DNA from: Deroplatys truncata | Lineage: Eukaryota > Arthropoda > Insecta > Mantodea > Mantidae | Direction of reading: 5' to 3' | Length of the DNA: 64,000 bases | Assembly (NCBI GenBank): GCA_030765065.1 | Contig: CM060988.1 | Location: 198,026,565-198,090,564, forward strand | In this document: positions 2,831 through 60,535 of the stretch, in pieces | How the letters are laid out: each line of letters begins with the position of its first letter | Position numbering within the stretch: the first letter of the stretch is position 1 | Made by a program: the position numbers and the translations under genes | Notes under the pieces: model-generated | What the model was told of the DNA's origin: nothing | Databases searched by the model: none | The model's input: the letters and a program-made list of their open reading frames with translations, nothing else

Positions 2831-2949
2831 ACTTTTCTACTCTTGACCAACCAGTTGGCATAAAAGCAATAACCATTCGAACTGCTTACCTCAAATTGTC
2901 TCACTAGGCTTATTGGAGGCCCAGTATTGCTCTGAAAATATTCTAGAGC

Positions 2950-4660: not shown

Positions 4661-4849
4661 AGTCGTGTGGTAAAGTGGACATACTGAAGAATTTCAGACA
4701 GCACAAAGCAAGACGTATAAATGGCATCTCTTAGATATATTGTACCCAATAATGTAACAATAGATATTGTGCCTGATGGAGGATTAAATTCCAATTCTGA
4801 TTATGAATTTAACACAATTAAATAAACACTATTTAAATGATTTCATATA

Positions 4850-22600: not shown

Positions 22601-22946
22601 ACTCTATGACATGGACAGTTCAAAACATGAATATATTGTGATCTGGGAGTTCAAAACATGAGTACACTGTGAGCTGGGCAATACAAAACACGAGTACTCT
22701 ATGATATGGACAGTTCAAAACATGAATATTTTGTGATCTGGGAGTTCCAAACATGAGTACACTGTGAGCTGGGCAATACAAAACACGAGTACTCTATGAC
22801 ATGGACAGTTCAAAACATGAAAGTTTTGTGATCTGGGAGTTAAAAACATGAGTACACTGTGAACTGGACAGTTCAAAACCTGGGAACTCTGTCAGCTGGG
22901 CAGTTCAAAACAAGAATACTCTGTGAACTGTGCACATCAAAACTTA
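19692..22946. repeat. 32-bp tandem satellite/minisatellite array
   Basis: About 100 units with a 32-bp period. Each has a core of GACACATCAAAACATGAG followed by TACTCTATGAGCTG. The centre (about 20600-21350) is the most homogeneous; the left end (19692-20100) and the right third are diverged. A second variant, containing GAACAGCATTACTTTATGAG, recurs at about 21430-21870. The array is not coding: stops occur in most frames and 32 is not a multiple of 3. Confidence 0.95.
22120..22870. repeat. 95-bp higher-order repeat inside the 32-bp array
   Basis: Three diverged 32/32/31-bp units alternate in fixed order: one with GGGCAATACAAAACACGAG, one with ATGGACAGTTCAAAACATG, one with GATCTGGGAGTTCAAAAC. 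The trimer repeats about seven times with few differences, so amplification happened at trimer level here. Confidence 0.85.
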
Positions 22947-35500: not shown

Positions 35501-37379
35501 TCTAGTAGCAAAAGACAGGTTCACTGTATCACACTTCTCCAGAAGAGGTCTATTGTGGAGTCTAGTAACAAAAGACAGGTTCACTGTATCACACGTCTCC
35601 AGAAGAGGTCTATTTTGGAGTCTAATAGCATAAGACAGGTTCACTGTATCATACTTCTCCAGAAGATGTCTATTGTGGAGATTAGTAGCAAACGACAGGT
35701 TCACTGTGTCACACTTCTCCAGAAGATGTCTATTGTGGAGTCTAGTATCAAAAGACAGGTTCACTGTATCACACTTCTCCAGAAGATGCCTATTGTGGAG
35801 TCTAGTAGCAAAAGACAGGTTCACTGTATCACACTTCTCCAGAAGATGCCTATTGTGGAGTCTAGTAGCAAACGACAAGTTCACTGTATCACACTTCTCA
35901 AGAAGAGGTCTATTGTGGTGTCTAGTAGCAAAAGACAGGTTCACTGTATCACACTTCTCCAGAAGAGGTCTATTGTGGGGTCTAGTAGCAAAAGACAGGT
36001 TCACTGTATCACACTTCTCCAGAAGAGGTCTATTGCGGAGTCTAGTAGCAAAAGACAGGTTCACTGTATCACACTTATCCAGAAGGGGTCTATTGTGGAG
36101 TCTAGTAGCAACAGACAGGTTCACTGTATCACACTTCTCCAGAAAATGTCTATTGTGGAGTCTAGTAGCAAAAGACAGGTTCACTGTATCACACGTCTCC
36201 AGAAGAGGTCTATTGTGGAGTGTAGTAGCAAAAGCCAGGTTCACTGTGTCACACGTCTCCAGAAGAGGTCTATTGTGGAGTCTAATAGCATAAGACAGGT
36301 TCACTGTATCATACTTCTCCAGAAGATGTCTATTGTGGAGATTAGTAGCAAACGACAGGTTCACTGTGTCACACTTCTCCAGAAGATGTCTATTGTGGAG
36401 TCTAGTATCAAAAGACAGGTTCACTGTATCACACTTCTCCAGAAGATGCCTATTGTGGAGTCTAGTAGCAAAAGACAGGTTCACTGTATCACACTTCTCC
36501 AGAAGATGTCTATTGTGGAGTGTAGTATCAAAAGCCAGGTTCACTGTATCACACTTTTCCATAAGATGTCTATTGTGTAGTCTAGTAGCAAAAGACAGAT
36601 TCACTGTATCACACTTATCCAGAAGGGGTCTATTGTGGAGTCTAGTAGCAAAAGACACGTTCACTGTATCACACTTCTCCAGAAAATGTCTATTGTGGAG
36701 TCTAGTAGCAAAAGACAGGTTCACTGTATCACACGTCTCCAGAAGAGGTCTATTGTGGAGTCTAGTAGCAAAAGACAGGTTCACTGTATCACACGTCTCC
36801 AGAAGAGGTCTATTTTGGAGTCTAATAGCATAAGACAGGTTCACTGTATCATACTTCTCCAGAAGATGTCTATTGTGGAGATTAGTAGCAAACGACAGGT
36901 TCACTGTGTCACACTTCTCCAGAAGATGTCTATTGTGGAGTCTAGTATCAAAAGACAGGTTCACTGTATCACACTTCTCCAGAAGATGCCTATTGTGGAG
37001 TCTAGTAGCAAAAGACAGGTTCACTGTATCACACTTCTCCAGAAGATGCCTATTGTGGAGTCTAGTAGCAAACGACAAGTTCACTGTATCACACTTCTCA
37101 AGAAGAGGTCTATTGTGGTGTGTAGTAGCAAAAGACAGGTTCACTGTATCACACTTCGCCAGAAGAGGTCTATTGTGGGGTCTAGTAGCAAAAGACAGGT
37201 TCACTGTATCACACTTCTCCAGAAGAGGTCTATTGCGGAGTCTAGTAGCAAAAGAAAGGTTCACTGTATCACACTTATCCAGAAGGGGTCTATTGTGGAG
37301 TCTAGTAGCAACAGACAGGTTCACTGTATCACACTTCTCCAGAAAATGTCTATTGTGGAGTCTAGTAGCAAAAGACAGG
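32580..37379. repeat. 4.8-kb higher-order repeat, copy B
   Basis: Directly abuts copy A and repeats its variant order, including the paired CCAGGAGGTGCC units (32603, 32663) and the 1-nt deletion near 35328. It has one private deletion near 33978. The junction lies in the unit around 32570-32585. The arrangement is what unequal exchange would give. Confidence 0.85.
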
Positions 37380-38579
37380 TTCACAGTATCACACGTCTCC
37401 AGAAGAGGTCTATTGTGGAGTGTAGTAGCAAAAGACAGGTTCACTGTGTCACACGTCTCCAGAAGAGGTCTATTGTGGAGTCTAATAGCATAAGACAGGT
37501 TCACTGTATCATACTTCTCCAGAAGATGTCTATTGTGGAGATTAGTAGCAAACGACAGGTTCACTGTGTCACACTTCTCCAGAAGATGTCTATTGTGGAG
37601 TCTAGTATCAAAAGACAGGTTCACTGTATCACACTTCTCCAGAAGATGCCTATTGTGGAGTCTAGTAGCAAAAGACAGGTTCACTGTATCACACTTCTCC
37701 AGAAGATGTCTATTGTGGAGTCTAGTATCAAAAGCCAGGTTCACTGTATCACACTTTTCCATAAGATGTCTATTGTGTAGTCTAGAAGCAAAAGACAGAT
37801 TCACTGTATCACACTTATCCAGAAGGGGTCTATTGTGGAGTCTAGTAGCAAAAGACACGTTCACTGTATCACACTTCTCCAGAAAATGTCTATTGTGGAG
37901 TCTAGTACCAAAAGACAGGTTCACTCTATCACACGTTTCAGAAGAGGTCTATTGTGGAGTCTAGTAGCAAAAGACAGGTTCACTGTATCACACGTCTCCA
38001 GAAGAGGTCTATTTTGGAGTCTAATAGCATAAGACAGGTTCACTGTATCATACTTCTCCAGAAGATGTCTATTGTGGAGATTAGTAGCAAACGACAGGTT
38101 CACTGTGTCACACTTCTCCAGAAGATGTCTATTGTGGAGTCTAGTATCAAAAGACAGGTTCACTGTATCACACTTCTCCAGAAGATGCCTATTGTGGAGT
38201 CTAGTAGCAAAAGACAGGTTCACTGTATCACACTTCTCCAGAAGATGTCTATTGTGGAGTCTAGTAGCAAAAGCCAGGTTCACTGTATCACACTTCTCCA
38301 TAAGATGTCTATTGTGGAGTCTAGTAGCAAAAGACAGGTTCACTGTATCATACTTCTCCAGAAGATGCCTATTGTGGAGTCTTGTAGCAAAAGACAGGTT
38401 CACTGTGTCACACTTCTCCAGAAGATGTCTATTGTGGAGTCTAGTAGCAAAAGACAGGTTCACTGTATCACACTTCTCCAGAAGATGTCTATTGTGGAGT
38501 CTAGTAGCAAAGGACAGTTTCACTGTATCACACTTCTCCAGAAGATGTCTATTGTGGAGTCTAGTAGCAAAAGACAGGT

Positions 38580-39660
38580 TCACTGTATCACACTTCTCCA
38601 GATGATGTCTATTGTGGAGTCTAGTAACAAAGGACAGGTTCACTGTATCACACTTCTCCAGAGGATGTCTATTGTGGAGTCTAGTAGCAAAGGACAGGTT
38701 CACTGTATCACACTTCTCCAGAAGATTTCTATTGTGGAGTCTAGTAGCAAAAGACAGGTTCACTGTGTCACACTTCTCCAGAAGATGTCTATTGTGGAGT
38801 CTAGTAGCAAAAGACAAGTTCACTGTGTCACACTTCTCCAGAAGATGTCTATTGTGGAGTATAGTAGCAAAAGACAGGTTCACTGTATCACACGTCTCCA
38901 GAAGAGGTCTATTGTGGAGTCTAGTAGCAAAAGACAAGTTCACTGTGTCACACTTCTCCAGAAGATGTCTATTGTGGAGTCTAGTAGCAAAAGACAGGTT
39001 CACTGTGTCACACTTCTCCAGAAGATGTCTATTGTGGAGTCTAGTAGCAAAAGACAGGTTCACTGTATCACACTTCTCCAGAAGATGTCTATTGTGGAGT
39101 ATAGTAGCAAAAGACAGGTTCACTGTATCACACTTCTCCAGATGATGTCTATTGTGGAGTCTAGTAACAAAGGACAGGTTCACTGTATCACACTTCTCCA
39201 GAAGATGTCTATTGTGGAGTCTAGTAGCAAAGGACAGGTTCACTGTATCACACTTCTCCAGAAGATTTCTATTGTGGAGTCTAGTAGCAAAAGACAGGTT
39301 CACTGTGTCACACTTCTCCAGAAGATGTCTATTGTGGAGTCTAGTAGCAAAAGACAAGTTCACTGTGTCACACTTCTCCAGAAGATGTCTATTGTGGAGT
39401 ATAGTAGCAAAAGACAGGTTCACTGTATCACACGTCTCCAGAAGAGGTCTATTGTGGAGTCTAGTAGCAAAAGACAAGTTCACTGTGTCACACTTCTCCA
39501 GAAGATGTCTATTGTGGAGTCTAGTAGCAAAAGACAGGTTCACTGTGTCACACTTCTCCAGAAGATGTCTATTGTGGAGTCTAGTAGCAAAAGACAGGTT
39601 CCCTGTATCACACTTCTCCAGAAGATGTCTATTGTGGAGTATAGTAGCAAAAGTCAGGTT
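38580..39660. repeat. 540-bp (nine-unit) higher-order repeat, two copies
   Basis: Nine 60-bp units beginning with CAGATGATGTCTATTG and CTAGTAACAAAGGACAGG at 38600 recur at 39140 in the same order, with an ATTTCT variant and two CGTCTCC units. Confidence 0.8.
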
Positions 39661-40762
39661 CACTGTATCACACGTCTCCAGAAGAGGTCTATTGTGGAGT
39701 CTAGTAGCAAAAGACAAGTTCACTGTGTCACACTTCTCCAGAAGATGTCTATTGTGGAGTCTAGTAGCAAAAGACAAGTTCACTGTGTCACACTTCTCCA
39801 GAAGAGGTCTATTGTGGAGTCTAGTAGCAAAAGACAGGTTCACTGTATCACACTTCTCCAGAAGATGTCTATTGTGGAGTCTAGTAGCAAAAGACAAGTT
39901 CACTGTGTCACACTTCTCCAGAAGATGTCTATTGTGGAGTCTAGTAGCAAAAGACAAGTTCACTGTGTCACACTTCTCCAGAAGATGTCTATTGTGGAGT
40001 CTAGTAGCAAAAGACAAGTTCACTGTGTCACACTTCTCCAGAAGATGACTATTGTGGAGTCTAGTAGCAAAAGACAAGTTCACTGTGTCACACTTCTCCA
40101 GAAGATACCTATTGTGGAGTCTAGTAGCAAAAGACAGGTTCACTGTGTCACACTTCTCCAGAAGATGTCTATTGTGGTGTCTAGTAGCAAAAGACAGGTT
40201 CACTGTGTCACACTTATTCAGAAGATGTCTATTGTGGAGTCTAGTAGCAAAAGACAGGTTCACTGTATCACACTTCTCCAGAAGATGTCTATTGTGGAGT
40301 CTAGTAGCAAAAGACAGGTTCACTGTGTCACACTTTTTCAGAAGATGCCTATTGTGGAGTCTAGTAGCAAAAGACAGGTTCTGTGTGTCACACTTCTCCA
40401 GAAGATGTCTATTGTAGAGTCTAGTAGCAAAAGACAGGTTCACTGTGTCACACTTCTCCAGAAGATGTCTATTGTGGAGTCTAGTAGCAAAAGACAAGTT
40501 CACTGTGTCACACGTCTGCAGAGGATGCCTATTGTGGAGTCTAGTAGCAAAAGACATGTTCACTGTGGCACACTTCTCCAGAGGATGCCTATTGTGGAGT
40601 CTAGCAGCAAAAGACAGGTTCACTGTGTCACACTTCTCCAGAAGATGTCTATTGTGGAGTCGGTAGCAAAAGACAGGTTCACTGTGTCACACTTCTCAGG
40701 AAGATGTCTATTGTGGAATCTAGTAGCAAAAGACAAGTTCAATGTGTCACACTTCTCCAGTA

Positions 40763-41045
40763 GATTCCTGTTTACACAAAATGTTTAAGATGGTGTCCAC
40801 TATACAGGCATCACAAGGAATGCGTGGGATCCTGGATTTTCCTCAGGATGCTAATAAGTAAAGATGAGGCTACATCAAAGTTAAGCTTAAAGAAAATTAT
40901 GAAGTGACTTTCTTGGTTAAGAATCTGACTATTGACAATCTTTCAATATGCACTCTTTCTTTTACAGGCATAGCAATGTGGTCTACACATAACTGTTAAG
41001 AAATTGAATATAAGGTATTAAAAAAAGGAAGTAGGTTGCTAAAAT
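40763..41045. other. Unassigned spacer
   Basis: Flank of the 60-bp array; nothing recognised beyond its proximity to the LINE-like fragment that follows. Confidence 0.4.
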
Positions 41046-42248: not shown

Positions 42249-43822
42249 TTACTCAGAATCATATACTATTTCACCCGTGTTTTCCCCGACTAAGCAACTA
42301 TCGCCAATAATTTTAGCATGTTTGCTCAAATACAGGGGGGTGTTGCATTTCCCACATGCATATTTAGTTTTGCAGTTCATTTTGTCTTTGTTGCTGGGTT
42401 CACATCGTTTCCTTTTCAATGTGCATAGTGGTGTGTTTGACAATTCATCTACGCCGGATTCTTCAGGTTTATATTTTGTCAAAAGGCCTTTCAAATCATC
42501 GGATAGATTTGATGCTATTGCTCTCCTTTGTAGCTGTTGCAACAGTAAAGCTAAAGATAGTGATTTCAAATACTCCTGCCTTGTGGAATATTTATTTTGG
42601 TTTCCAAGGAAGATAACCCTAGAATTAATATCTGCAATGTTCAAGATATGGTCAAAAATTACCACGGGCCACCTTCTCGTTGTTCTGGCTACATTGTATG
42701 TAGCACACAATTTATCTACTGCATCAACTCCACATTTAGTGTTGTTGTAATGCAGGATTATTTCAGGCTTTTTCTCAGCACCTTCTGATAACTGTGTGGA
42801 TGAAACATGTAGACTTGAGAGCAAAACTACTGTTTTACCCTTTTTTGGTACATATGAAACAAGTGTTTCATTTTTTGTGAAGCCAAATATGCTTTCGTAC
42901 TGTCTGCGATCTTTTGGAGAAGTGAAATTAGTGGGTAACTCTTTTTTGTTCTTTCGCACTGTACCGACTAAAGAAAGTTGTCTTTTGCGCAATTCATTCA
43001 CCAGCGATACACTGGTAAACCAATTATCTGTAGTAACGTTTCGTCCAGTGCCAGAGATTGGTTCAGTTAGTCTCAGCACTACAGCCTCTGCCGAGTTAGT
43101 TTGCAAATATGGTCCGCCCGGCTGCTGTCCACAATAAATCTCCATGTTAGTTGTATAAAACAGTTTTGCATCACTGAAACAGAATATCTTTATGCCATAC
43201 TTGTTTGGCTTGGATGGTATATATTGTCTAAAAGCACATCGACCACGAAATGCCGGCAACTGTTCGTCGACAGTGACATTTTGTCCAAGAGAATAATGGT
43301 TCTGACAGTTGTTCAGAAACAATGTAAACATTTCTTTTACAACAGCCAATTTATCCAATCTTCGTCGCTCCAGCCTTGAGCTTTGTCATCAAAGCAAATA
43401 CAGCGTATTAGAAAACTGAATCGTTTTTCGGAAATAGTCATTCAGAATAGAGGAATTCCAAGATCGGTTATCCAAACTCGTGAATATTCTGGCGTCCACC
43501 ACGAAAAATTCCTGCCAGGTACAATAAGCCTAGGAAAACTTTTATTTCTATTACATCTGTAGGTCTGCTGTCTCTATCACAATCAAATTTGTGCTGCACA
43601 CTGCTAATGTAAGTAGTTGAGCTTTCAACAATCAAATCAATTATATCTTCGGTAACAAAAAGGTTCCAACAATCAATTTCCATTTTCGCATTTTTGGCAG
43701 CTCCTACCACACCAGGAAGTTTTGTTAACATATTGTGAGCCCTTGTCTGTGTTATTTTCAAAGGTGTTTTTTTTTTCATTTTGTATCATCTCTTCCTGCG
43801 AATAACAAGAGAATGTATTGTC

Positions 43823-45467: not shown

Positions 45468-47047
45468 GACAATACATTCTGTTGTTATTTCAGGAAGAGA
45501 TGCAACAAAATGGGGAAAAAACACCTTGGAAAATAACACAGATAAGAGCTCACAATATATTGAACAAACTTCCTGGTGTGGTAGGAGCTGCCAAAAATGT
45601 GAAAATGGAAATTGATTGCTGGAACCATTTGGTTACCGAAGATATAGTTGATTTAATTGCTGAAAGCTCAAATACTTACATTAGCAGTGTGCAGCCCAAA
45701 TTTGATCGTGAAAGAGACAGAAGACCTACAGATGTAATAGAAATAAAAGCTTTCCTAGGCTTATTGTACCTGGCAGGAATTTTTCGTGGTGGACGCCAGA
45801 ATATTCAGGATTTTAGGAGAACCGATGATCTTGGAATTCCTCTATTCCGGATGGCTATGTCCGAAAAGGATTCAGTTTTCTAATACGCTGTATTCGCTTT
45901 GATGACAAAAGCTCAAGACTGGAGTGACGAAGATTGGATAAATTGGCTGCTGTTAGAGAAATGTTTACATTGTTTCTGAACAACTGTCAGAACTATTATT
46001 CCCTTGGACGAAATGTCACTGTCGATGAACAGTTGCCGGCATTTCGTGATCGATGTGGTTTTAGACAATATATAACATCCAAGTCAAACAAGTATGGCAT
46101 AAAGATATTCTGTTTGAGTGATGCAAAACTGTTTTATACAACTAACATGGAGATTTATTGTGAACAGCAGCCGGACGGACCATATTTGCAAACTAACTCG
46201 GCAGAAGCTGTAGTGCTGAGACTAACTCTACCAATCTCTGGTACTGGACGAAACGTTATTGCAGATAATTGGTTTACCAGTGTATCGCTGGTGAATGAAT
46301 TGCGCAAAAGACAACTTTCTTTCGTCGGTACAGTGCGAAAGAACAAAAACGAATTACCCACTAATTTCGCGTCTCCAAAAGATCGCAGTCAGTACGAAAG
46401 CATATTTGGCTTCACAAAAAATGAAACACTTGTTTCATATGTTCCATAAAAGGGTAAAAACAGTAGTTTTGCTCTCAAGTCTACATGTTTCATCCACAAA
46501 GTTATCAGAAGGTTATGAGAAAAGACCTGAAATAATTCTGCATTACGACACTAAATCTGGAGTTGATGCAGTAGATAAATTGTGTGCTACATACAATGTA
46601 ACCAGAACAACGAGAAGTTGGCCCATGGTAATTTTTTGCCATATCTTGAAGATTGCAGGTATTAATTCTAGGGTTATCTTCCCTGGAAACCGAAATAAAT
46701 ATTCCACAAGGCAGGAGTATTTGAAAGCACTGTCTTTAGCTTTACTGTTGCAACAGTTACAAAGGAGAGAAACAGCGTCAAATCTACCCGGTGATTTGAA
46801 AGACCTTTTGACAAAACATAAACCTGAAGAATCCGGCGTAGATGAATTGTCAAATACACCGCTATGCACATTGAAAAGGAAACGATGTGAACCCTGCAAC
46901 AAAGACAAAATGAACTGCAAAACTAAATATGCATGTGGGAAATGTAACACCCTTTCCCCCCCTGTGTTTGAGCAAACATGCTAAAATTATTTGCGATAGT
47001 TGCTTAGTCGGGGAAACACGGGTGAGATAGTAGATGATTCTGAGTAA
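45157..47047 (+). pseudogene. piggyBac transposase, copy 2 (two exons, broken)
   Basis: Exon 1 (45157-45370) encodes the acidic N-terminus (RRLLCDDDALPMDDNLYES, then D/E-rich). The intron, 45371-45493, begins GTAACATC and ends TTTCAG, and holds an ATT microsatellite. Exon 2 restores the piggyBac G-x-D-x-T-x-W motif across the junction. Lesions: one extra A in an A-run just after that motif; a frame change near 45865; a TGA near 45920; a TAA at 46447 followed by an extra A; and a frameshift in the Cys-rich tail near 46950. The catalytic blocks VTVDEQLPAFRDRC, DNWFTSVSLV and SGVDAVDKL survive. The gene is inactive. Confidence 0.88.
45404..45468. repeat. ATT trinucleotide microsatellite in piggyBac copy 2 intron
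   Basis: About 21 ATT units inside the predicted intron, at the position where copy 1 has its own trinucleotide run. Confidence 0.93.
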
Positions 47048-47352: not shown

Positions 47353-48056
47353 TTATTTAAAAAAAATAATATTCTATTAATTTGTAATACTCTTTTATAA
47401 TAATAAAAATAATTTATTAATTATGTATTTACTTTATTAATAGCTTTTTATTTCTATATAATATACCAATTATTGAATCAAAGCATATGAAGTTCAATAC
47501 ATGTTCCTTAAATTTGAAGAACAATTGCAAACCAATGTCAATGTTTCATGTTCTTTAGAAGTAAACCTTAAACAGAATGACTTCACATTTTACTATTTGT
47601 GAAAAATTGCCCAGGTTAGGAGTAATCAGTTTCTTGCTTCTCCTGTAAATTGTTGTTTTGACAATATAATTTCAAACAATGCTCCTCAGATTTGTATGGA
47701 GAGAAAATTTGAGGATTATCAGAGATTCTGAACAAAACTGATGTAATATATAGGATGCCTTGTAAAGTTATAAGATTTATCAAAGCATCACCAAGATGAG
47801 CAGCATTGGCAGAACGGAATTGATAATAGTGGTACAGGAATCTGAAATTAGAGGGGGATGATAATATAATTAAAAGTTGCATGAATTACCAAGGAGCACC
47901 TTTGCACAATAATTTGGGAAGAAATTGAAAGAAACCCTAGAAGAGATTAATATGAGAGATGTATGACAGAAGAGAAAATAATTAAATCAGATTCTGGAAG
48001 AAGTAAGGCAAAAGTTAGAAAATATTGTGATGCAGGGGCTATAGACAAAGCATATT
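47353..48056. other. Unassigned spacer
   Basis: AT-rich; short ORFs such as 88 codons on the minus strand at 47616-47882 match nothing. Confidence 0.45.
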
Positions 48057-48560
48057 GTAAGGTTGGCACCAGGCACACAGAAGGATAAACAGAAATAAAT
48101 TACATGGTTGCAATATCACCCCCTGTGCATACACCAGAAACACTATCAACAATAACCAGAATCTTCTGGAAGCATCCCTCCCACAACTCCTCCAGAACAT
48201 CTGTCCAGAACATGCTAGAATGTCCTATAGAAACCTCCAGTGGCTGTATAAGCCGGAGTGTGTCGCAGCAGGTTGATTAGTGAACAAATTGGCAAGTGTG
48301 TTTCTGCTGTAAGATCAGGTGTAGTTCTACAAGTGAGTTTGAAATCACAGCATAATGCTGAGTGATGCTCCTAATGAGGAAGATTAGGGGCATCTTGTGT
48401 TGGAATCCCCTACAAGTGAAATGGACTGAAGAGGAGACATTGTGTGTATTTCAGTATGCGGCTATGTGATGAAGAAAAGTGTAGTGGCAGGAAACTGAAG
48501 TGATAATATGAAGTTACAGTGAAAGTTGAACTACATAAAAAATGTGAAGTGACAGTGAAA
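48057..48560 (+). mobile_element. LTR-like block (5' LTR plus leader) of a Ty3/Gypsy element
   Basis: This segment is similar in order and sequence to 53452-53960. Shared landmarks are TGTAAGGTTGGCACCAG/GGAGGTTGGCACCAG at the start, ATAACCAGAATCTT, a TATA box in TGTATAAGCC, GTGTAGTTCTACAAGTGAGT, and TTACAGTGAAAGTTGAAC. It stands directly before a gag gene, as a 5' LTR should. The exact LTR/leader boundary and the primer-binding site are not resolved. Confidence 0.6.
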
Positions 48561-48603
48561 ACAGGACAAAGACACGCTCGTATTAAGAATAGGATATAAG
48601 GCC

Positions 48604-49660
48604 ATGCAGGAGGAAATGCTTCAGAAATTACTGGCTGGAATGTAGAACATGGAGATGGAAATGGAATCTATAATGGAGAAGATGGGAATGGCAGTAAAGA
48701 GTGCTATGGAAGAAATGAAAAAATGGACAAATTGCAAAAATAAGACTGAAATAGAGAGAATGAAATTATAACTCAGTTTTAACATTGACAATGTAAAGTT
48801 TGAGATAAATAAAATGGTGAAACAGAACTTGCACAGGAGTTACAACAAACTAAATCTGACATGGAAGATAAAATTAATGTAGTAGAAGAGAATCTAGTTT
48901 GGAAACAAAAACAGGTAGTCTAGCAAATGAAGGTAAACAAGGGGATGATAGAAGCCGAAAGGATCAGGGTCTGGACCTACAAGCTAAGGTAAGCAAGAGG
49001 ATGATAGACGCCACAGTGGAGGCACAACACTGTGACCTGCAACTCAAGATCCATGCTGAAAGTGCTATTGCAACCCACAATGAATGGAAGCCAATGCAGG
49101 TTATGGCTGCCTTGCAGAAGCAAGCAGTGGATACACTTCACACTTTCACAGCTGGAGGTTCATCCACTAATTTAATTGAACTGTTGGAGGGACGTTATAG
49201 AGAACATTGCCTTGTTGCAACTTACTGGGCCCAGTTGAAGGCAAGAGTGTAACAACCAAATGCCAACTTACAAGAACGTGCCATGGAGGAGCGGCTGAAA
49301 CACCGGGCTCTGAATGACTTTACCACCACATTGCATTTCTGGAAGGACAGCTAATGCAGTCATTAGTAGGGTAACAGACCAGGAGTTGAAACAGCAGCTT
49401 CTCCTGGGGGCAAGAGTATAACATAAATGATACTCTGGCTGAATCAGTAAAGATGACAGCCAGAAAAGTCTCAGTGCTATCCAGAACTGCCACAGTCAAC
49501 AAGGATAATTAAAATTAAATGATACATACCTTCTTTCTTCTTGAATTTGAAAAATTTAATTCTCAGCCACAACATCTGTCATAGGACTTGAGACTGGAGA
49601 CCCACATACTGGTGTTGCAGTAAGCCTGGACACCTCAGCGTAAATTGCTGGTAAACAAGA
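48604..49660 (+). pseudogene. Ty3/Gypsy gag pseudogene with zinc knuckle
   Basis: The start is at about 48604 (MQEEMLQKLLAGM, then a stop), followed by a Met/Glu/Lys-rich coiled-coil-like part. The clean ORF 48899-49252 is gag capsid-like: LKIHAESAIATHNEWKPMQV, then LQKQAVDTLHTF and LLEGRYREHCLVATYWAQLK. After a frame change it continues (ELKQQLLLG-type block near 49383-49410, then KVSVLSRTA). A CCHC zinc knuckle read as CSKPGHLSVNC lies at 49616-49655. It would package element RNA; here it carries several stops. Confidence 0.8.
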
Positions 49661-50560
49661 TAATCTCTAAGAGCCAACTTGAGCAGGACTACATTGGCGC
49701 TGTCACCGCCTCCTCTTTGCTTAACCTTAGAACACTGAGTAGGAACATGTCATTCTAACTGAATAGTCAAATCCTGAAGACCATGCCAGGCAAGTGGCAA
49801 CCAATAGATAATGGTCAAGGCGGATGCCAGTGTTATAGCCTTATTCATGATCTGGTCAAAGTCCAACTTACAGTGAATTCAGATGGACTTTGCGGGGAAG
49901 ACTGCACTGCCCGGAATGCTTTGTATCGTTTGCTAAATTGTAAAATGCATTTGTCTTTTAAGATGGAGATTCAGTGCTGGGCCCTTTATAAGATTTAATT
50001 ATACACACTTTAACAGCCAAATATCGTAGTAGCAGGCATATGTCCAAGGAAAGAAAGGTCGAACATTTACATAGAAATGAAAAGCTTAATGTTTTTGTAA
50101 TTCTATATTGTTTTTTGTTCTGAAATATTCAACTAAGATTCACAAAGAAGTTAACAAGCAGTAAATTGAATAAAGCCTGTTCTTTTTTCTTCTTCTTGTG
50201 CATATACAATGCTTTACGTCCATTAGAAGTAACAAATTGCAATATTACTAAACATGTTCTAAATGGCAACCATTATAAAGGCATGCTGCATGACTTGGTA
50301 TGTTAAATTTGGAATGTTACTCACTAAATGTATGAATAGAATTTTATACTAGGCCAAAATTGCATGTGCAAGCTGCTGCTTCCCAGACCACTGAGCTACG
50401 CTGGCTTCTCTGGTGACAATCAACCCTCGACAAATTCCTCTTCTTCATGTCCAAAGCTGCCCGGCCTCCCACTGTGGAGTGTAACATGTGACTTCACGTC
50501 ATCGTCACTAGCTCCTGTCAGGCTACCAAGCTGGCCCTACAGATGAAGAAGCAGACTGTT
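49661..50560. other. Unassigned interior of the Gypsy remnant
   Basis: Protease, reverse transcriptase and most of RNase H would be expected here but no conserved motif can be read. The pol middle appears deleted or decayed beyond recognition. Confidence 0.4.
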
Positions 50561-51310
50561 TCTAGACAACTCAGCCAGCGGTCTCCGTCGGTTACATACT
50601 CGAATGCCCAGGCAAATAGCTGTTGATCTCGTCTGTAGGCAATGTATGGCTTTTATCGCCAGCCCCTTGTACAGACGATGATAGTATAGGAAGTGGGCCC
50701 AAGATGGCTCAGAGTAACAAGAACACTGATATATAACACCAATATTGAAGACATGACCAGCATGGGGAGATATCACTCCCAGAGACTCAAACAATAAGAG
50801 TTATTGGGCTAAGCTGGACTCCGTAGGAGTTAGGAATGGTCTGCTGAAGAAAGTATAGGAGTCCCCAGATTGGAGGACTAAGGTCAAATAATTCCTCGAA
50901 GAAAACCATGTTGGTGCTACCAGAGCGTACTTGAATGTTACTCAGATCATGAAAAAACCACTCACCAATTCTATTGGTTGCATCTGCAAAGGTGGTGCCA
51001 GCAGTGCAACATCTACTTCGCAAGTCTTGGGTCCAAGACTGTAGTCAGCTACAAGTTGGGCAATATGATGTTCGGCCCTCAACAGTCAACTAGGAGTCAC
51101 CATGACAAATGCTTGAATGAAGGCATGCTATGACAGTCTGGCAAACAGTGCAATCGTCCCATGAGGAATAAGGGGAAGTCCCTGAAGCATCAACTTCCTG
51201 GTACAGTCTGTATAATGTAATCACCTGTTACAATGTAGTTGTATACCACATTCAGCATCAACACAGAAAGATGCTTAGGTGGTTCACTTTGATTGCCTTG
51301 CAGCATATCG
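50561..51310 (+). pseudogene. Ty3/Gypsy pol end: RNase H-integrase linker, zinc domain and integrase C-terminus
   Basis: Reading across frames gives NKSYWAKLDSVGVRNGLLKK (50794-50853), then ESPDWRTKVK and HVGATRAYLNVTQ, the pre-integrase linker. HQFYWLHLQRWCQQC (near 50965-51010) is the H2C2 zinc domain. Next come YDSLANSA, RNKGKSLKHQLPG, and a terminal VVYHIQHQHRKMLRWF-type block near 51236-51290, corresponding to the V-V-Y-R-I-Q...K-V-V-H-x-D-R-L end of Gypsy pol. The catalytic core is missing. The end of this coding sequence runs straight into the 78-bp tandem array. Confidence 0.72.
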
Positions 51311-53425
51311 CAGAATGACAAAAAGCTCTGAGAAGGGAGCCGAGTGAACACTGATGTTGGTTCACCTGGATTGTCTTGATCCATATCACAGAATGACTAA
51401 CAGCTCTGAGAAGGAAGCTGAGTGAACGCTGATGTTGATTCATCTGGATTGTCTTGATCCATATCACAGAATGACTAACAGCTCTGAGAAGGGAGCCGAG
51501 TGAACACTGATGTTGGTTCATCTGGATTGTCTTGATCCATATCACAGAATGACTAACAGCTCTGAGAAGGAAGCTGAGTGAACGCTGATGTTGATTCATC
51601 TGGATTGTCTTGATCCATATCACAGAATGACTAACAGCTCTGAGAAGGGAGCCAAGTGAACACTGATGTTGGTTCATCTGGATTGTCTTGATCCATATCA
51701 CAGAATGACTAACAGCTCTGAGAAGGAAGCTGAGTGAACGCTGATGTTGGTTCATCTGGATTGTCTTGATCCATATCACAGAATGACTAACAGCTCTGAG
51801 AAGGGAGCCAAGTGAACACTGATGTTGGTTCATCTGGATTGTCTTGATGCATATCACAGAATGACTGACAGCTCTGAGAACGGAGCCGAATGACGCTGAT
51901 GTTGGTTCATCTGGATTGTCTTGATCCATATCACAGAATGACTAACAGCTCTGAGAAGGAAGCTGAGTGAACACTGATGTTGGTTCACCTGGATTGTCTT
52001 GATCCATATCACAGAATGACTAACAGCTCTGAGAAGGGAGCCGAGTGACGCTGATGCTGATTCATCTGGATTGTCTTGATCCATATCACAGAATGACTAA
52101 CAGCTCTGAGAAGGAAGCTGAGTGAACGATGATGTTGATTCGTCTGGATTGTCTTGATCCATATCACAGAATGACTAACAGCTCTGAGAAGGAAGCTGAG
52201 TGAACGCTGATGTTGATTCATCTGGATTGTCTTGATCCATATCACAGAATGACTAACAGCTCTGAGAAGGAAGCTGAGTGAACGCTGATGTTGATTCATC
52301 TGGATTGTCTTGATCCATATCACAGAATGACTAACAGCTCTGAGAAAGCTGTGTGTGATGCTGATGTTGGTTCATCTGGATTGTCTTGATGCATATCACA
52401 GAATGACTAACAGCTCTGAGAACGGAGCTGAGTGAACGCTGATGTTGATTCATCTGGATTGTCTTGATCCATATCACAGAATGACTAACAGCTCTGAGAA
52501 CGGAGCTGAGTGAACGCTGATGTTGATTCATCTGGATTGTCTTGATCCATATCACAGAATGACTAACAGCTCTGAGAACGGAGCTGAGTGAACGCTGATG
52601 TTGATTCATCTGGATTGTCTTGATCCATATCACAGAATGACTAACAGCTCTGAGAAGGAAGCTGAGTGAACGCTGATGTTGATTCATCTGGATTGTCTTG
52701 ATGCATATCACAGAATGACTAACAGCTCTGAGAAGGAAGCCGAGTGACGCTGATGTTGCTTCATCTGGATTGTCTTGATCCATATCACAGAATGACTAAC
52801 AGCTCTGAGAAGGAAGCCGAGTGACGCTGATGTTAGTTCATCTGGATTATCTTGATCCATATCACAGAATGACTAACAGCTCTGAGAAGGGAGCCGAGTG
52901 ACGCTGATGTTGCTTCATCTGGATTGTCTTGATCCATATCACAGAATGACTAACTGCTCTGAGAAAGCTGTGTGTGATGCTGATGTTGGTTCATCTGGAT
53001 TGTCTTGATGCATGTCACAGAATGACTAACAGCTCTGAGAAAGCTGTGTGTGATGATGTTGGTTCATCTGGATTGTCTTGATCCATATCACAGAATGACT
53101 AACAGCTCTGAGAAAGCTGTGTGTGATGCTGATGTTGGTTCATCTGGATTGTCTTGATCCATATCACAGAATGACTAACTGCTCTGAGAAAGCTGTGTGT
53201 GATGCTGATGTTGGTTCATCTGGATTGTCTTGATGCATATCACAGAATGACTAACAGCTCTGAGAAAGCTGTGTGTGATGCTGATGTTGGTTCATCTGGA
53301 TTGTCTTGATCCATATCACAGAATGACTAACTGCTCTGAGAAAGCTGTGTGTGATGCTGATGTTGGTTCATCTGGATTGTCTTGATGCATGTCACAGAAT
53401 GACTAACAGCTCTGAGAAAGGAGTG
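51282..53425. repeat. 78-bp tandem array derived from the Gypsy pol C-terminus
   Basis: About 28 units, 78 bp in the left half and 75-77 bp in the right third. Each unit reads on the plus strand as VHLDCLDPYHRMTNSSEK..E followed by TGA. This matches the K-V-V-H-x-D-R-L-A-P-Y end of Gypsy pol, whose single-copy version (WFTLIALQHI) leads directly into the first unit. Two subfamilies exist: GAAGGAAGCTGAGTGAACGC and GAAAGCTGTGTGTGATGC. Minus-strand ORFs with repeated IQMNQHQRSLSFLLRAVSHS are shadows of the 78-bp (26-codon) period. Confidence 0.88.
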
Positions 53426-53451
53426 TATGATGCTGCGGCTGTGCACTAAGC

Positions 53452-53960
53452 TTTTCTGGAGGTTGGCACCAGCAATTGGAGGGGAAAACATAGATAAGTG
53501 ATGGAGTAGTGCTCTTTCCCAGCATAAACACTAGAAGCATTATTGACAAATAATCAGAATCTTACCTTCCTACCTGCTGTCTCCTGAATGTGTGAGTGTT
53601 CTTGTAGAAACTTGCACCAGCCATATAAGCCAAAGGATTTGCTAGTCTCATGATTAGTGAATGAGTGAGATGGAAAGTGCATTTCTGTTGCAATATCAAG
53701 TGCAGTTCTACTAGTGAGTTTCTGACAACAGTGGGGGCTATTAAAGAGAGAGTTTAGATAGGCTGTGTTTGACTTCCCAAGTGAAGTGGAGCAAAGAAGA
53801 GGCTGCTTCACATATATTCCACTATGCAGTGAAAAACTGAAGTGAATCACATTAGACAATGTGAACAACGTGTAATTACAGTGGAAGGTGAACTAGATCA
53901 AAACAGTGAAGTCATAGAGTACTGAGGAAAGTGACAGGGGTAACTAGACAAAGTCACAAT
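53452..53960 (+). mobile_element. Second LTR-like block, same orientation
   Basis: Diverged homologue of 48057-48560 (roughly two thirds identity by eye), with GGTTGGCACCAG, TAATCAGAATCTTACC, the TATA-box segment CCATATAAGCC, and GTGCAGTTCTACTAGTGAG. The sequence TGGGGGCT at 53731 could be part of a primer-binding site. It sits about 27 bp after the 78-bp array, so it could be the 3' LTR of the same element. Similarity to leader sequence seems to continue further, so it could also be the 5' end of another element. Confidence 0.55.
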
Positions 53961-55120
53961 ATTGAGAGACAAGAGATATGATCAAGCTTTGAAAATAAAG
54001 GTTCTTTGGTATTGCACAAGATAATAAAGAAGGACTGAGGGAGGGAGAAATAAGTTGAGAGCTGTGATAAGCAAGGCCAAGAGGGATATGCATGGATGTA
54101 ACTGGGGCATCCTATCTTACAGGATTTAGGAACTGCAAGATACTACAACATGTAACACCAGGTAAGTATTTGTTTTGTATAGAGAAACACGGTGTATGTT
54201 TCGTTGTTTGACACAGTACACAGAAACAAGTAATTGGAAATTGGGAGTATGGGATCCAAATTGTAATGAAACAAACAAATTTTTGTAGTAATAAAAATGT
54301 TGACGTTGGAAGGTGGGAAAGAATTAAGAGAATGGGTGAATATCTAGGAGGAGTAAAGCACAAATGGATTAGAAAAATGAGAAGAAAAACCTAGTTAAAA
54401 CAGGGCTCTAACAAATGCAGAGACCAAGCAATCAGGTATGCTGTGTCCTTAAAGAAGGTTGTTTTCATTCTTAAGAAATGTATAACTTACACTATACTTA
54501 GTTAAGCTTGAAATAAATATATTTTATTGGCTACATCTTAGTCGATAGGAAACTTTGTAACCTTTTTATTGCCTGCATCTTAGGAGATAGGAACCTTTCT
54601 TTTAAAAAATAAAGAAATTAAAATAACAAGCAGTTTTCCAATGTATGTGCTGATTATATTCCAGTAATTATAGTTATCTTTGCCTTAATCATATGTCTCT
54701 TAGAGTACTCTTAATGTGCTTATTAAATACCATTGCCAAAAGTAACAATTACCAGTACAGCTATTCTGTTCATGAATTACTTGTAGATTAACATTCTTTT
54801 TAACATCCTGGAAAAAAATACTGAGATTGAGAAAACTTATGTTGAAATAATGCTGCTTATGTAACAGATAATGACTTGAATACAATCTTCTATCAAATTT
54901 AATTTTATTCTTAGTTACACAGATTGACATGATCAGAAGACTTACAGGGAAGAGCTTTACACTTTTTAAAAGGCTGCTAACATTACATTATAGTGCACCA
55001 GTTTGCTTGAATAATTAAATTTGTCAGTGCACTTTAAACAAAACATTGCCAGTAACAGATTCATTTCAGATATCTCTCACATTCTTCAAAATAGAGAAAA
55101 CTGTATTTCCAACTAACAAC
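53961..55120. other. Unassigned AT-rich spacer
   Basis: No gag follows the second LTR-like block. Short ORFs only; nothing recognised. Confidence 0.45.
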
Positions 55121-55124
55121 TTAA

Positions 55125-56353
55125 ACTCTCTTAGTGCCATGCAACAGAATGGCTGGCAGCCATTAAACTGCCAGATATGGGCAGATTGGCTTTGAAAGTT
55201 CGTCCTGCTGAGTGGCAGAGCCAATTATGTCAACCTGCAACAACCTTCATGGTAAAACAATTTTTGTGACATTGAATGCTAATGGAATTCAAGCCCTTGG
55301 GAAAAAGATTCAAACTTTTTCCTTTTACTGCTTGGTTTATAATGTTATACATCAGTTTCAATAAAGTAAACCGCCCCTCAGTCTACGACTGTGCATCGTG
55401 TACTTTTTATGTAAAATGGCAAACAGCTTTTGTGATCTTTTTACAGCTGGTGATCATGACAAGAAGCTGTTGCAATATTTTGCGCAATGCTGATGAGTTG
55501 ATGTCAAATAGCAATAGTGATAGTGATCATGATAATGGTGATATAACAGACATGGCCCTAAGGCTCTCTACCACCAAAAAAAAAAAAAAGTTTCAAAACT
55601 TGCAAGGAAATGATGCCAACATCACTGTCAACAAAACGGAAATTGTTTATACCATTTTACCATTCCATTGTAGATTCTCTAAGAAAATAAGGTTGTCTAC
55701 AAGAGAGAGCATCCACACATTCTAACTAACAAGGATAGTACCAGAAAATTAGTCTGCGGTATCAGGCTGTTACCTGAACAGTGCATCATGTTCTATTCAC
55801 AACAAACATCTCAATCAACAACTATTTATGTCAGGTGTGGTAAACGATTGCATACCACGTGTGCAAAATAAGTGCATATAAATAACTATATATTAACTTT
55901 CTCAGCCACTTGTGTGCTACATCATTTCTGGCCTAAATTTTAAAACAATCAAATTATTTTAAATGCTAATGCAAGTTTCCTTGTTCATAAAGTATCACTC
56001 TTTCATTTGCTATACCTCAAACGTTTTCAGTGCATTTTCAGTGGTGGATTTTTTAACTCATATCTTGAAAAAAAAATGTTTATACTACAAAAAATTTTGA
56101 AGTAAAACATTTTACTCCTGATATAAAATTAATATACATTATTACCATAATGACATTTATATTACCTGAATCTCATGCAGGAAAGGTTTCTACCACTGTG
56201 TCTATTAAAGAATTATTTTTATACAATTTTTCATAATAGCTACCTCCTGCTTAAAATGCCTTGGCACTTTACAGCAGGTAAACGTGGCAGGCATGTGACT
56301 TTCTCCAATCAGTTTCAGAAAGCTGACTAGATTGGCTCACGGCATTAAGAGGG
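55125..56353 (+). mobile_element. Short piggyBac-type element with TTAA flanks
   Basis: Imperfect inverted ends sharing CTCTTA(G/A)TGCC(A/G)TG lie next to TTAA at 55121-55124 and 56354-56357. At 1229 bp it is too short for a full transposase. Inside are an acidic stretch (MSNSNSDSDHDNGD, near 55501-55542) like a piggyBac N-terminus, and a Cys/His-containing segment (IYVRCGKRLHTTCAK, near 55824-55868) like the C-terminal zinc region. The middle with the catalytic residues is absent. A non-autonomous deletion derivative is the simplest reading. The 149-codon ORF 55276-55725 is part of this debris. Confidence 0.6.
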
Positions 56354-56566
56354 TTAAATAATGAATTCATGAATGCATTTCTCCTTCTAAAATGAAATTA
56401 CAACAAAATATTTATACTTCATTGCATACCTAAAGTCAATTAAGCTGAACTGATAGATTATGACCTTAAAAAACTAATTCTACATATTAAAAAACCTTCA
56501 CCATTTAGTGTTTTGGTTACAATGCAATTATATGTGATAGCAGAGTAACACTTTTTTATGAATACA

Positions 56567-56872
56567 TTATACGTTTGTGGCTTTTGCACTCATAATGCAC
56601 TTGTGTGCTTTCAAGTTTGATAGCCGAGGAAAGCTCTTATTGTAATCATTATATCCATAAGCCTTTTCACCCTCATGAATTAAACTGTATGTTTTCTTCT
56701 TGTAAACATTAAATTTATGTGGATTTTTTAGCTCATGTAGCTCATGAATCAAAGTGTCTTTTCATATGAAAAATCGAAGTAAAGCTCTTTTTGCAAACAT
56801 TACAATCATGAGACCTTTTAATCTCATAAACTTAGTCGTGTGTTTATACATGCAACACCAGACTAATCCTCT
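56567..56872 (-). pseudogene. Decayed C2H2 finger cluster (third copy of zinc-finger gene 3' end)
   Basis: On the minus strand, finger remnants read HDCNVCKKSFT, then LIHEGEKAYGYNDYNKSF and LSNLKAHK. Several zinc-binding Cys are lost (for example Y-x-x-Y replacing C-x-x-C). It belongs to the same tandem series as 57935-58256 and 58257-59622; the series was later split by a LINE. Confidence 0.8.
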
Positions 56873-56884
56873 TATTTACATATA

Positions 56885-57922
56885 CACGTGAAAGCATTCA
56901 GGAGGGAGCAGTAGAAACAATCCTTATTGCAACAGACAGATTGTTTGCCTCAACAGGGGATGCTGGAGGTCAGACAAGCAAGGATCCTAGGCCAGGCCAC
57001 CGCTCAACTAATACAAGCAATTAAGGGAGAGGCTGAGAAGCAACCAGATTCAGAGATACAGCGTCGACTAGAGCTAGGGAGGTTTGGTAGCAAAGCAAAA
57101 ATTGTGGAAAGGGTATTAAAATATTGGTATAGAATTAAGGAACTGGAAAATAATAATATGTTAAAATAGTGCCTAGAAGTGCAGTTAAAACTCAACAAAG
57201 AGGATTCTTGGTGTAAGTATATAGAAGGAATCCTGAATGAAATAGGTTATGGAGATATTTGTAGAGAGGGGCAGGTACTGGAGAAGGGGTTCTGGAGAAG
57301 GGTAAAATTGAGATTTGAAGATATTGAAAGACAAGAAATTCTAGGTAGTTTTAAATTTAAATCTTCTTTATGTATATATGCTGATTTAAAAATGGTGTGG
57401 GAAAGAAAAATATATCGATATATGTGACAGATCAGCACGAGAAGGTTTTGCATGGGCGAGGACAGGAGTGATGATGTTAAAAGGCTTAGGGGAAAGAGAG
57501 AATCAAGGAAAGTGTCCGCTATTTAATAGAAAGTATAATAATTATTGGCATTTAATTCTAGAATGTGAAGGAACTAAGGAATTGAGGGGAAGATGGCAGA
57601 AAACAAAATGGGACAATTTACCAATTGAAATTATAGGTAGAAAGATATTGGGTGCTAAATGCAAGGGGAACATATTAGAAGTAGGAAAATATTTAGGTTT
57701 AATTAGAAAGAGATGGCTGAAGAATTATAGGAATAAGGAGTAAGAGGAAAAGTAGTTAGTAAAAAGTAGATTAATAACATATTTATTTATTCAGTCAAGT
57801 AGGGCCCATTGACTCGGTAACCACAGTGTTGGAGGATAGGGGCCCTAGAAAACCAGCAACTCGATAAAGCTTGTAAAGTGGAATATGTATACACTATGTA
57901 TTTAATGAAATAAATATCTCTC
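56885..57922 (+). mobile_element. 5'-truncated LINE with 12-bp target-site duplication
   Basis: The direct repeat TATTTACATATA flanks it at 56873-56884 and 57923-57934, and removing the insert restores continuity with the paralogous zinc-finger sequence at 58250. Three ORFs in different frames form one C-terminal LINE protein piece: 56927-57169 (GEAEKQPDSEIQRRLELGR), 57179-57427, and 57468-57743 (CPLFNRKYNNYWHLILECEG, a C-x-x-C...H...C region with one Cys changed to Phe). The 3' part has AAATAAATATC before the duplication. Confidence 0.85.
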
Positions 57923-58256: not shown

Positions 58257-59622
58257 CTATTTACAAACATAGTTATGCGGCAATTTAACCTCATGAATCA
58301 AACCATGTCTTTTCAAATGCGATAGTCGAGCGAAGCTCTTACTGCAGACATCACATTTGTTTGGCTTTTTGCCCTCATGAATCAAACTGTGTGTTCTCAA
58401 ATTCCCTAGCTGAGTAAAACTCTTATTGCAAATATTACATTTGTGCGGCTTTTTGCCCTCATGAATCAAAATGTGTCTCTTCAAATTTCCTAGCTCAGTA
58501 AAACACTTATTGCAAACATTACATTTGTGTGGCTTTTTGCCCTCATGAATCAATATGTGTTTTTTCAAATGGCCTAGCTGAGTAAAGTACTTATTGCAAG
58601 CATTACATTTGTGTGGCTTTTTGCCCTCATGAATCAAGCTGTGTGTTTTTAAACTCCCAAGCTCAGTAAAGCTCTTATTACAAACATTACATTTGTGTGG
58701 CTTTTTGCCTTCATGAATCAAACAATGTCTTTTCAAACTTACTAGCCATGCAAAGCTCTTATTACAAAGATTACATTTATGTGGCTTTTTACCCCCATGA
58801 CCCAAGCTATGTGCTTTTAAATTTGTTAGCTGAGTAAACCTCTTATTGCAAACATTACATTTGTGCGGCTTTTTACCATCATGAATCAAGCTATGTCTTT
58901 TCAAATCTGACAGCCCAGTAAAGCCTTTATGGCAAACCTTACATTCGTGTGGTTTTCTACCCTCATGAATCAAACTGTGTTTTTTCAAATACCCTAGGAC
59001 AGTAAAGCTCTTGTTGCAAATATTACATTTGTGTGGCTTTTTGCCGTCATGAATCAAACTGTGTGTTTTCAAATGTCCTAGCTGTGTAAAGCCCCTATTG
59101 CAAACATTACATTTGTATGGCATTCTACGTTCATGAATCCAACTGTGTGTTTTCAAATTCCCTAGCTGAGTAAAGCTTTTATTGCAAACAGTACATTTGT
59201 ATGGCCTTTTGTTATCATGAATAAAACTGTGTGTTTTCAAATGAGATAACCAAACAAAGCGCTTATTGCAAATATTACATTTGTGTGGCTGTTTGCCCTT
59301 GTGACTCAACCTGTGTCGCTTCATTGTTTGCTGTAGAGAGAAGCTCTTCTGGCAAATGTCACAGTTGTATACCTTCTTTTCTTCACGACTCAAATCAGGC
59401 AATTTCAATGCTGATTTGCCAGGAAACACTTTTCCAAAGAGCTCACATTGTATTCCTGCTTCCACAATCATAACTTGCTTTTTTGAAGGTAATACTGAAA
59501 CACAAGCTTTACTATTCTCAATGTTCCTCTTAGATCTATGAGAAAAAACGTCTTTAGCTATTTGGGATGGGTCCATAGCTTCTATTCCAGGAACTTCAGG
59601 ACAAGTTGTATCTAGATTTAAT
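58257..59622 (-). CDS. C2H2 zinc-finger protein, 13 fingers, 3' exon
   Basis: The exon opens at 59622, right after a consensus splice acceptor (TACTTTTTCAG on the minus strand). The first in-frame ATG is at 59576 (MDPSQIAKDVF), so either this is the start or an upstream exon provides it. The first 70 or so residues are a non-finger N-terminus with no BTB, KRAB or ZAD motif. Thirteen C-x2-C-x12-H-x3-H fingers follow, joined by HEGKKPHKC linkers (a variant of TGEKPY), then the tail LPHNYVCK and TAG at 58257. The product should be a nuclear DNA-binding protein, probably a transcription factor; target unknown. The finger backbone is nearly constant while helix positions -1, 2, 3 and 6 vary. No frame break is seen, in contrast to everything around it. 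Confidence 0.88.
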
Positions 59623-59640
59623 CTGAAAAAGTACAAGAAA
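59612..59640 (-). promoter_or_regulatory. Splice acceptor of the zinc-finger exon
   Basis: A pyrimidine-rich tract ending in TTTTTCAG abuts the exon at 59622. A duplicated version (ACTTCTTCAG) is found at about 62475-62487, supporting its identity as an exon edge. Confidence 0.65.
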
Positions 59641-60535
59641 TGTCTTTAATTTGAGAAATGAGTGTAGACATAATTAACTAATAACACTGAGAGGAAAATG
59701 GTATTTAGTTACTAAATGGGAAAATATAATGTTCTTGAAATTTATCCCTGATTATACTTATGAATGCAGTATTAATTAGTTGTTTATTTATAAGTAGTTC
59801 CATAAAATACTATTTTTTATACTGATAATAAAGTTTAAGTTTATCACTGATAGGCAGTAGTTTCTTGTGTACTTGATTCTTGAGCTTTAAATACAGCAAA
59901 ACCTTTACCCAATGCACCTTTATGGACTACTTATATAAAAAGTATTAAGTCAGTATACACCTCTGTTATTAGCAGCAAAAGTAATTTGTTAGAGTACCAC
60001 AACCAAGCAACCAGTCACCCACGAGGCAGACCTTCCAGCAGCATCACGTGGCTCACCATTTCTTTGACTTCAAAGTGCAAGAAAGCACAGTTGTATACAC
60101 ACTGTAGTGGTCATAAGTGGCCACACAGTCAGTCAAAAGTATTGTTTGCATTCCCTTTATCATCTTTGGAATTAGGAATCACATGACTTAAGTATCTTCC
60201 CAAAATCTGCAGTATTCCTTTGTTTCATTTGTAATTGTACTGTGGTTATTGAGCAGTTAACAATTGTGGACTGACAGTCTTGCCTGGGCAACAAGTTTCG
60301 AAAGTATCTGCATTGACGCCACCAGCAGAAATTGTTGTACCAATGGCACTGGGGATTAATTGACCTCCATCATTTTCCCTCTGGCTTTCCAATATAAAGT
60401 CTGTAATTATCACTTTCAAGGCTTTTGCATTTGGCGAGATAGTTCTGTGAGACAATTGTGGCAACTGGCCATGCTAAATAAGGCCACTGCAGTCTTCTTT
60501 GACATTTTTTGTATAGCAACTCTATCTTTAATATT
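59641..60535. other. Unassigned spacer / possible intron
   Basis: Upstream of the zinc-finger exon on its strand, so probably intronic. A 72-codon minus-strand ORF at 60246-60464 may be the tail of the LINE that follows; nothing else recognised. Confidence 0.4.

Follow-up and report, generated by a model that had tools for sequence, protein, structure and literature searches.

A minisatellite of 28 units in the window, by which we mean the whole 64,000-bp stretch of DNA analyzed (C14:198026565-198090564 in a 4.29-Gb genome), consists of copies of the end of a retrotransposon pol gene; the 78-bp unit covers the final ~22 codons of pol and the likely polypurine tract and ends on the first bases of the long terminal repeat (LTR). 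We favor, with a probability of roughly 0.84, an explanation built on a single insertion, block copying, duplication between short repeats, and unequal exchange. A Ty3/Gypsy-like LTR retrotransposon would have inserted once into a host block with a C2H2 zinc-finger (ZNF) gene, and the block, including the element, would have been copied into clusters on C14 and C1. In some of these copies, a GATGCT(G) pair would then have allowed replication slippage or microhomology-mediated repair to duplicate the ~76 bp between its members, and the resulting two-unit pair would have been long enough to grow by unequal exchange, with local homogenization, to 28 units in the window, 59 in a more distant locus, and over 220 in a sister locus. 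The basis of this explanation is observed: the unit content, the single-copy relatives, the common insertion and flank, the empty site, the stage series, and the border repeats.

The array and the element that contains it

TRF reported an array at 51304-53423 (period 78, 27.5 copies, 93% matches, score 3393), and anchor splitting gave 28 units with 27 spacings of 73-78 bp, in agreement with the ~28 units between the pol end and the LTR described in an earlier sequence-only reading. Together with the locus comparison, these analyses place the minisatellite at 51270..53424 (+), its natural phase running from about 51270 up to the start of the 3' LTR near 53425. The head-to-tail units of 73-78 bp fall within the range of minisatellites (tandem units of roughly 10-100 bp). 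No gap separates the decayed pol end from the array, and the frames of the window bear out this continuity, which had been proposed earlier; however, the terminus RWFTLIALQHI proposed along with it is an out-of-frame reading. The stretch VVYHIQHQHRKML is in another frame than the repeat motif; in the frame of the repeat units, the first unit gives VVHFDCLAAYRRMTKSSEKGAE followed by a stop and is out of frame with the upstream pol. Those internal units that were translated give VHLDCLDPYHRMTNSSEKxAE and a stop, or nearly so, and contain H-L-D-C-L-D-P-Y instead of the motif H-x-D-R-L-x-P-Y that had been assigned to them. The end of the unit is formed by the first bases of the LTR itself, rather than lying just near an LTR-like block; the pol stop codon sits within these bases, and the purine-rich GAGAAGGGAG just 5' of the LTR start is, we assume, the polypurine tract.

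The element is flanked by target-site duplications of ATAT (alternatively ATATTG) at 48022..48025 (+), from comparison with the empty site in L056 and with L038-L040, and at 53959..53962 (+), from the empty-site and border comparison. Duplications of 4-6 bp are typical of Ty3/Gypsy elements. The degraded 5' LTR (48026..48596, +) has its start from the same kind of comparison and its 3' end from similarity to the 3' LTR. The latter (53425..53958, +; start approximate), delimited by the LTR pair and the empty-site and border comparison, ends in ...GTCACA, and the empty-site comparison gives an LTR of the form TGTGATGC...GTCACA with the expected TG...CA ends. From the empty-site and border alignments, the 3' LTR therefore starts directly after the last unit. 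We set aside dating from the LTR pair of the window itself, since the 5' LTR aligns over just two short segments (48274-48340 with 53651-53721, 77%; 48514-48550 with 53876-53912, 84%).

Between the LTRs, a 124-aa open stretch at 48878..49252 (+) is presumably a gag remnant, judging by its position; Pfam gave no match for this stretch or for the L026 and L028 pieces. It is followed by an unrelated dispersed repeat (49915..50711, unstranded), recognized by matches outside C14 and in L033-L036: 37 of the 41 matches to the left-flank query lie outside C14 and all 37 end by query position 421 (window 50720), and L033-L036 match parts of 49915-50300. The 3' pol remnant (50712..51303, +), delimited by its frames and itself broken in frame, comprises the pol C-terminus and, at about 50960-51040, what we take to be the integrase zinc-binding motif. 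The window copy is internally deleted and, from the gag-position remnant to the integrase end, is missing most of its pol.

Pol domains were recognized by Pfam in relatives and not in the window copy: RT_RNaseH_2 in L014 (7.1e-9) and Integrase_p58_C in L017 (6.5e-5, under the gathering score), and these matches identify the family as Ty3/Gypsy-like. The RNase H stretch of L014 lies 1.9 kb upstream of the integrase end, consistent with the order RT-RNaseH-IN, which separates Gypsy from Copia, as far as these two parts show. LTR-like repeat pairs (73-78%) occur in L016, L017, L023, and L025, just about 1.4-2.4 kb apart, and the repeat-pair comparison found no LTR pair in L014 and L028. The short distances suggest that internally deleted copies of this Gypsy family are common. 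L016 showed no clean insertion border, and sequence resembling another copy precedes its 5' LTR. Upstream of the Gypsy remnant in the window, between it and a 60-bp array, lie two open stretches, 42249-43385 (-) and 45470-46984 (+), which we presume to be similar to piggyBac-type transposases.

Single-unit relatives and sister loci of one insertion

A genome search with the pol end and the first units returned further copies on C14 within 0.36 Mb and scattered copies elsewhere. In L014, the unit segment is single and colinear with the pol end, and a 122-aa open stretch holds the pol end ...RRKLMAAHLDCLAAYRGVPKSSEKGAV. Using the L014 pol-end/LTR junction as query, we scored the best 40 of 2047 first-look candidates, all of which were single colinear matches (L014 itself, L012, L013, and 37 others) spanning query 53-189, i.e. 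the unit at about 67-144 and both of its sides. Besides the query, 39/39 of these best matches carry one unit, as the sequence-only reading had expected of relatives, and a pol end unlike the unit was looked for among them and not seen; the best 40 favor colinear, single-unit copies, and array loci are absent from them. A counterweight to this bias is provided by nine dispersed loci (L014, L016, L017, L021, L023-L026, and L028) that came from the array-containing query, and no array of the pol-end unit was found in 9/9 of them.

The host DNA past the 3' LTR (53963..56890, +; from flank comparison) is common, whole or in part, to paralogs on C14, C1, and C2, namely the window, L009-L013, L019, L020, L044, L046, L048-L054, and L056; in L010 and L011 it starts again just about 1 kb out. 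The C2H2 zinc-finger gene of the duplicated block lies at 58257..59645 (-; Pfam zf-H2C2_2, 2.2e-74), and 84-bp finger-like repeats occur in or near L010, L011, and L041-L044. The left flank of the window has full-length matches to three nearby loci (84-87%). The LTR end and the flank aligned through in 12 of the 19 loci tested and three others show the 5' border; the 3' border query gave no match in L010 and L011, and L044 and L046 gave no alignment through the border. L015, L018, L022, and L045 were counted as sister loci by similarity and position, and duplicates of other loci (L001-L008, L029, L031, L032, and L047) were set aside in the locus and flank comparisons. Since the host flank is common to the sister loci in the ZNF clusters of C14 and C1, these loci descend from one insertion, and the element copies travel with C2H2 ZNF genes.

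The paralog on C2 (L056) is an empty site. It aligns with the window at 71% over 134 bp up to the element start and at 75% over 433 bp from 53959, and the two matches overlap by 27 bp in L056 with nothing in between.

The C14 sister loci contain 0, 1, 1, 2, 2, 28, 59, and over 220 pol-end units, the variation in copy number between loci that characterizes a minisatellite being found here among paralogs. L049 has none, its pol-end region being deleted; L012 and L013, with the same host flank and insertion border as the window, have one unit each; L010 and L011 have two each; and L009 has 59. The L030 array (about 197788397-197805272, 16.9 kb) holds 219 complete units in four adjoining stretches, plus units cut at the stretch ends, giving over 220; gaps are at most 3 bp in three stretches and the spacing is a regular 71-77 bp in the first. 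By eye, the C1 copies L015, L018, L019, L020, L022, and L027 each carry one pol-end unit. Arrays elsewhere in the family had been anticipated and do exist, but in sister loci rather than in new insertions. Given the empty site and the unit numbers of the sister loci, the array arose in place after insertion; the proposal that the unit is a copy of the pol end amplified in place agrees with these data and with the single-unit relatives.

Several comparisons bear on the order of events. Both the left-flank tree (local support 0.93) and the LTR tree (87) join the window with L030, the two being 0.075-0.085 apart in the pieces compared with L010 and L011 and 0.055 in a further flank piece; flank distances of 0.020-0.057 pair L010 with L011. 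Nevertheless, the pairing of the window with L030 is not uniform across the pieces compared: in the gag stretch, L030 is slightly closer to L011 (0.081) than to the window (0.084), and over a 200-bp piece of the LTR the distance from the window is 0.052 to L010 versus 0.075 to L048. By eye, the last unit of the window has variants of the second unit of L010/L011, a type to which the internal units of both the window and the L030 array also belong; this would fit a two-unit ancestor followed by growth in the window and L030 lineages. A 6-bp shortened junction is common to L011 and the 71-bp units of the L030 array and, because of this, L010 and L011 may be contracted arrays instead of a preserved two-unit stage. 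The LTR tree does not unite L009 with the window group in one clade, so the step from one to two units possibly occurred once, possibly twice.

Founding, growth, and neighboring arrays

The array borders coincide with the short direct repeat GATGCT(G), which occurs in the pol C-terminus and in the first bases of the LTR. The outer edges both carry the exact 7-bp GATGCTG in L030/L048 and L011, and the exact 6-bp GATGCT in the window and L009; in L010 and the single-copy L012 and L013, the borders match at just 5/7 positions. Five stretches of these loci gave 260,073 position pairs with separations of 60-130 bp, and exact runs of at least 7, 6, 5, 4, and 3 bp occurred in 0.0006, 0.0018, 0.0057, 0.019, and 0.059 of these pairs, figures that are inflated by the two units included in the L010 stretch. 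Conversion at a later time may have made the border repeats more alike. We infer slippage, end joining, or unequal exchange as the molecular step, and neutrality.

Most units have their nearest neighbor solely in their own array (217/219 in L030 and 23/27 in the window, with 1 and 3 ties, respectively), i.e. the arrays are locally homogenized. Units of type c (the 76-bp class) differ by 0.058 across the window and L030 arrays versus 0.107-0.143 from other types in their own array, indicating that the 76-bp class is older than the duplication of the two loci. Type a differs by 0.080 across the arrays but by 0.052-0.071 from type b in its own array, and types a and b showed no pairing across the two arrays in the unit comparison. 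The length subfamilies noted in the sequence-only reading thus exist, but their supposed late split is ruled out for the 76-bp class, which is common to the sister array. Second neighbors in the window are slightly closer (0.042) than first neighbors (0.049), which would fit growth partly by two-unit steps.

At least four segments of these blocks became arrays, with units of 78 bp from the pol end, 93 bp from the zinc-binding region, 110/111 bp from the polypurine tract and LTR start, and 60 bp from an upstream segment. On C1, the 93-bp unit from the integrase zinc-binding region is present in 17 copies in L015, 16 in L018, 8 in L019, and about 49 in L045/L022; the 110/111-bp unit is present in 3 copies in L020, 8 in L019, and at least 22 each in L015, L018, L022, and L027. 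The two arrays of L015 lie at 640-2224 and 2456-5000, and the tandem-repeat reading of L046 found neither. The 93-bp arrays are bordered by ACGTCGTCA/ACGTAGTCA (8/9 bp, longest exact run 4) and the 110/111-bp arrays by AGAAG/AGAAG. The 60-bp array of the window (26610-40765, 236 copies) derives from a segment that lies upstream of the element at a distance of about 7 kb and is present as one unit in L038 (1764-1833) and L039 (2202-2271) and as five in L040 (1459-1768); the single unit of L039 lies between GATTTCTGTT and GATGTCTATT (8/10 bp, longest exact run 3), and that of L038 has a border match of 7/10. The longest exact runs at the 60-bp and 93-bp borders, 3 and 4 bp, are not rare (0.059 and 0.019), and these arrays support the border-repeat step weakly since the chance rate covers exact runs, not imperfect repeats.

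Further tandem repeats were observed in passing. The window has a 32-bp array at 19692-22943 (about 102 copies). The sister loci L051-L054 (C1:20.96-21.98 Mb) have lost the pol end and show a twofold 167-bp repeat in the gag-position region, with downstream arrays of 120 bp (L051, L053, and L054) and 137 bp (L052-L054).

Counting arrays with a period of at least 15 and at least 3 copies, tandem repeats cover 33.5% of 136 kb taken from the C14 cluster and 41% of 60 kb taken from the C1 cluster, versus 0.2% of 45 kb surrounding the nine dispersed copies; ten arbitrary places, 40 kb in total, had no such arrays. This enrichment is suggestive only, as the cluster loci were chosen partly via array hits and sister loci are not independent. 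We tentatively consider the duplicated ZNF blocks to be minisatellite nurseries, a reading to which we give somewhat less than even odds, in which the locus and not the retrotransposon would be the driver: recurrent breaks, stalled forks, or homologous exchange between copies of the block would keep making arrays of sequences that lie between short direct repeats.

In a quite unlikely alternative, reverse transcription would have produced the tandem repeat, the element would have brought it along on insertion, and the low-copy sister loci would have lost units. In favor of such an origin, the unit includes the likely polypurine tract and stops where the LTR starts, which is the expected plus-strand priming site; its place in the element, between pol and the 3' LTR, is also that of the 3'UTR repeats of plant Ogre elements, which, as given in an excerpt of PMC7004042, would be a precedent. 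On the other hand, one unit is found in 39/39 scored relatives (from the colinear-biased best 40 of 2047), the nine dispersed loci are free of arrays, L012 and L013 carry the same insertion with one unit each, and other pieces of this insertion are arrayed solely in other sister loci; on the evidence of the single-unit relatives and sister loci we rejected this origin. Less probable still is an array maintained as a functional element of the ZNF block, either a regulatory spacer or a coding repeat. Minus-strand open stretches of 120-227 aa do run across the units, but they follow from the stop-free 78-bp period, lengths of 71, 73, 76, and 77 bp break the frame, and sister loci exist with 0, 1, or 2 units; a coding function was rejected, the open stretches being a product of the period. 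A pre-existing minisatellite joined by an adjacent insertion, with a pol-end likeness due to chance, has nothing specific in its favor beyond a block rich in minisatellites and is hardly conceivable, being refuted by the array-free empty site on C2, the one-unit sisters L012 and L013, and the unit colinear inside the pol end of the scored relatives (best 40 of 2047).

Comparison with known systems

Amplification in place from a pol terminus can be compared with several systems, for which we rely on excerpts of the cited papers. According to the part of PMC6947457 used here, minisatellites can originate by duplication between flanking repeats of 5-10 bp (Haber and Louis 1998), a single motif between short direct repeats being followed by slippage or unequal exchange, much as proposed here. 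In the unexpanded state the flanking sequences match incompletely, at 5/7 positions in L012 and L013 and, at the 60-bp site, at 8/10 in L039 and 7/10 in L038. In contrast to that type, the empty site, the single copy, the two-unit loci, and the three expanded arrays are here sister copies of one locus.

For plant Ogre elements, an excerpt of PMC7004042, which cites Macas 2009 on Ogre repeats, describes satellites from Ty3/Gypsy 3'UTR repeats that are hypothesized to form during element replication. Shared features are the Ty3/Gypsy family, repeats downstream of pol, staged array expansion, and pol-lacking elements, which those authors inferred for two of nine satellites; the array described here was instead born after insertion and from pol coding sequence. 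The maize centromeric retrotransposon repeats CRM1TR and CRM4TR (PMC3648361, in part) likewise have a single parental Ty3/Gypsy element, repeated origin from similar regions, and a proposed illegitimate recombination between short homologies, but their units are LTR-UTR sequences and they are (peri)centromeric; moreover, for a single-step junction their authors report finding no short direct repeat, and such a repeat is present here. Mouse Ms6-hm, from MaLR, and the soybean Gmr9/Gm-ogre minisatellites, listed in a table of PMC6947457 seen as an extract, also grew from LTR retrotransposons, of other element types and in other hosts. Among the literature matches listed, mostly titles and the starts of abstracts, none described a minisatellite grown from a pol terminus in ZNF blocks.

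The coding origin fixes the ancestral state of the array sequence, and the four arrays in the same blocks act as replicates from which founding and growth rates, and the role of the short direct repeats versus that of the locus, can be estimated. This kind of minisatellite birth is already known. What stands out is that sister loci of a single insertion display a series of stages: the founding duplication of minisatellites is usually lost, and here the stages extend from an empty site to over 200 units.
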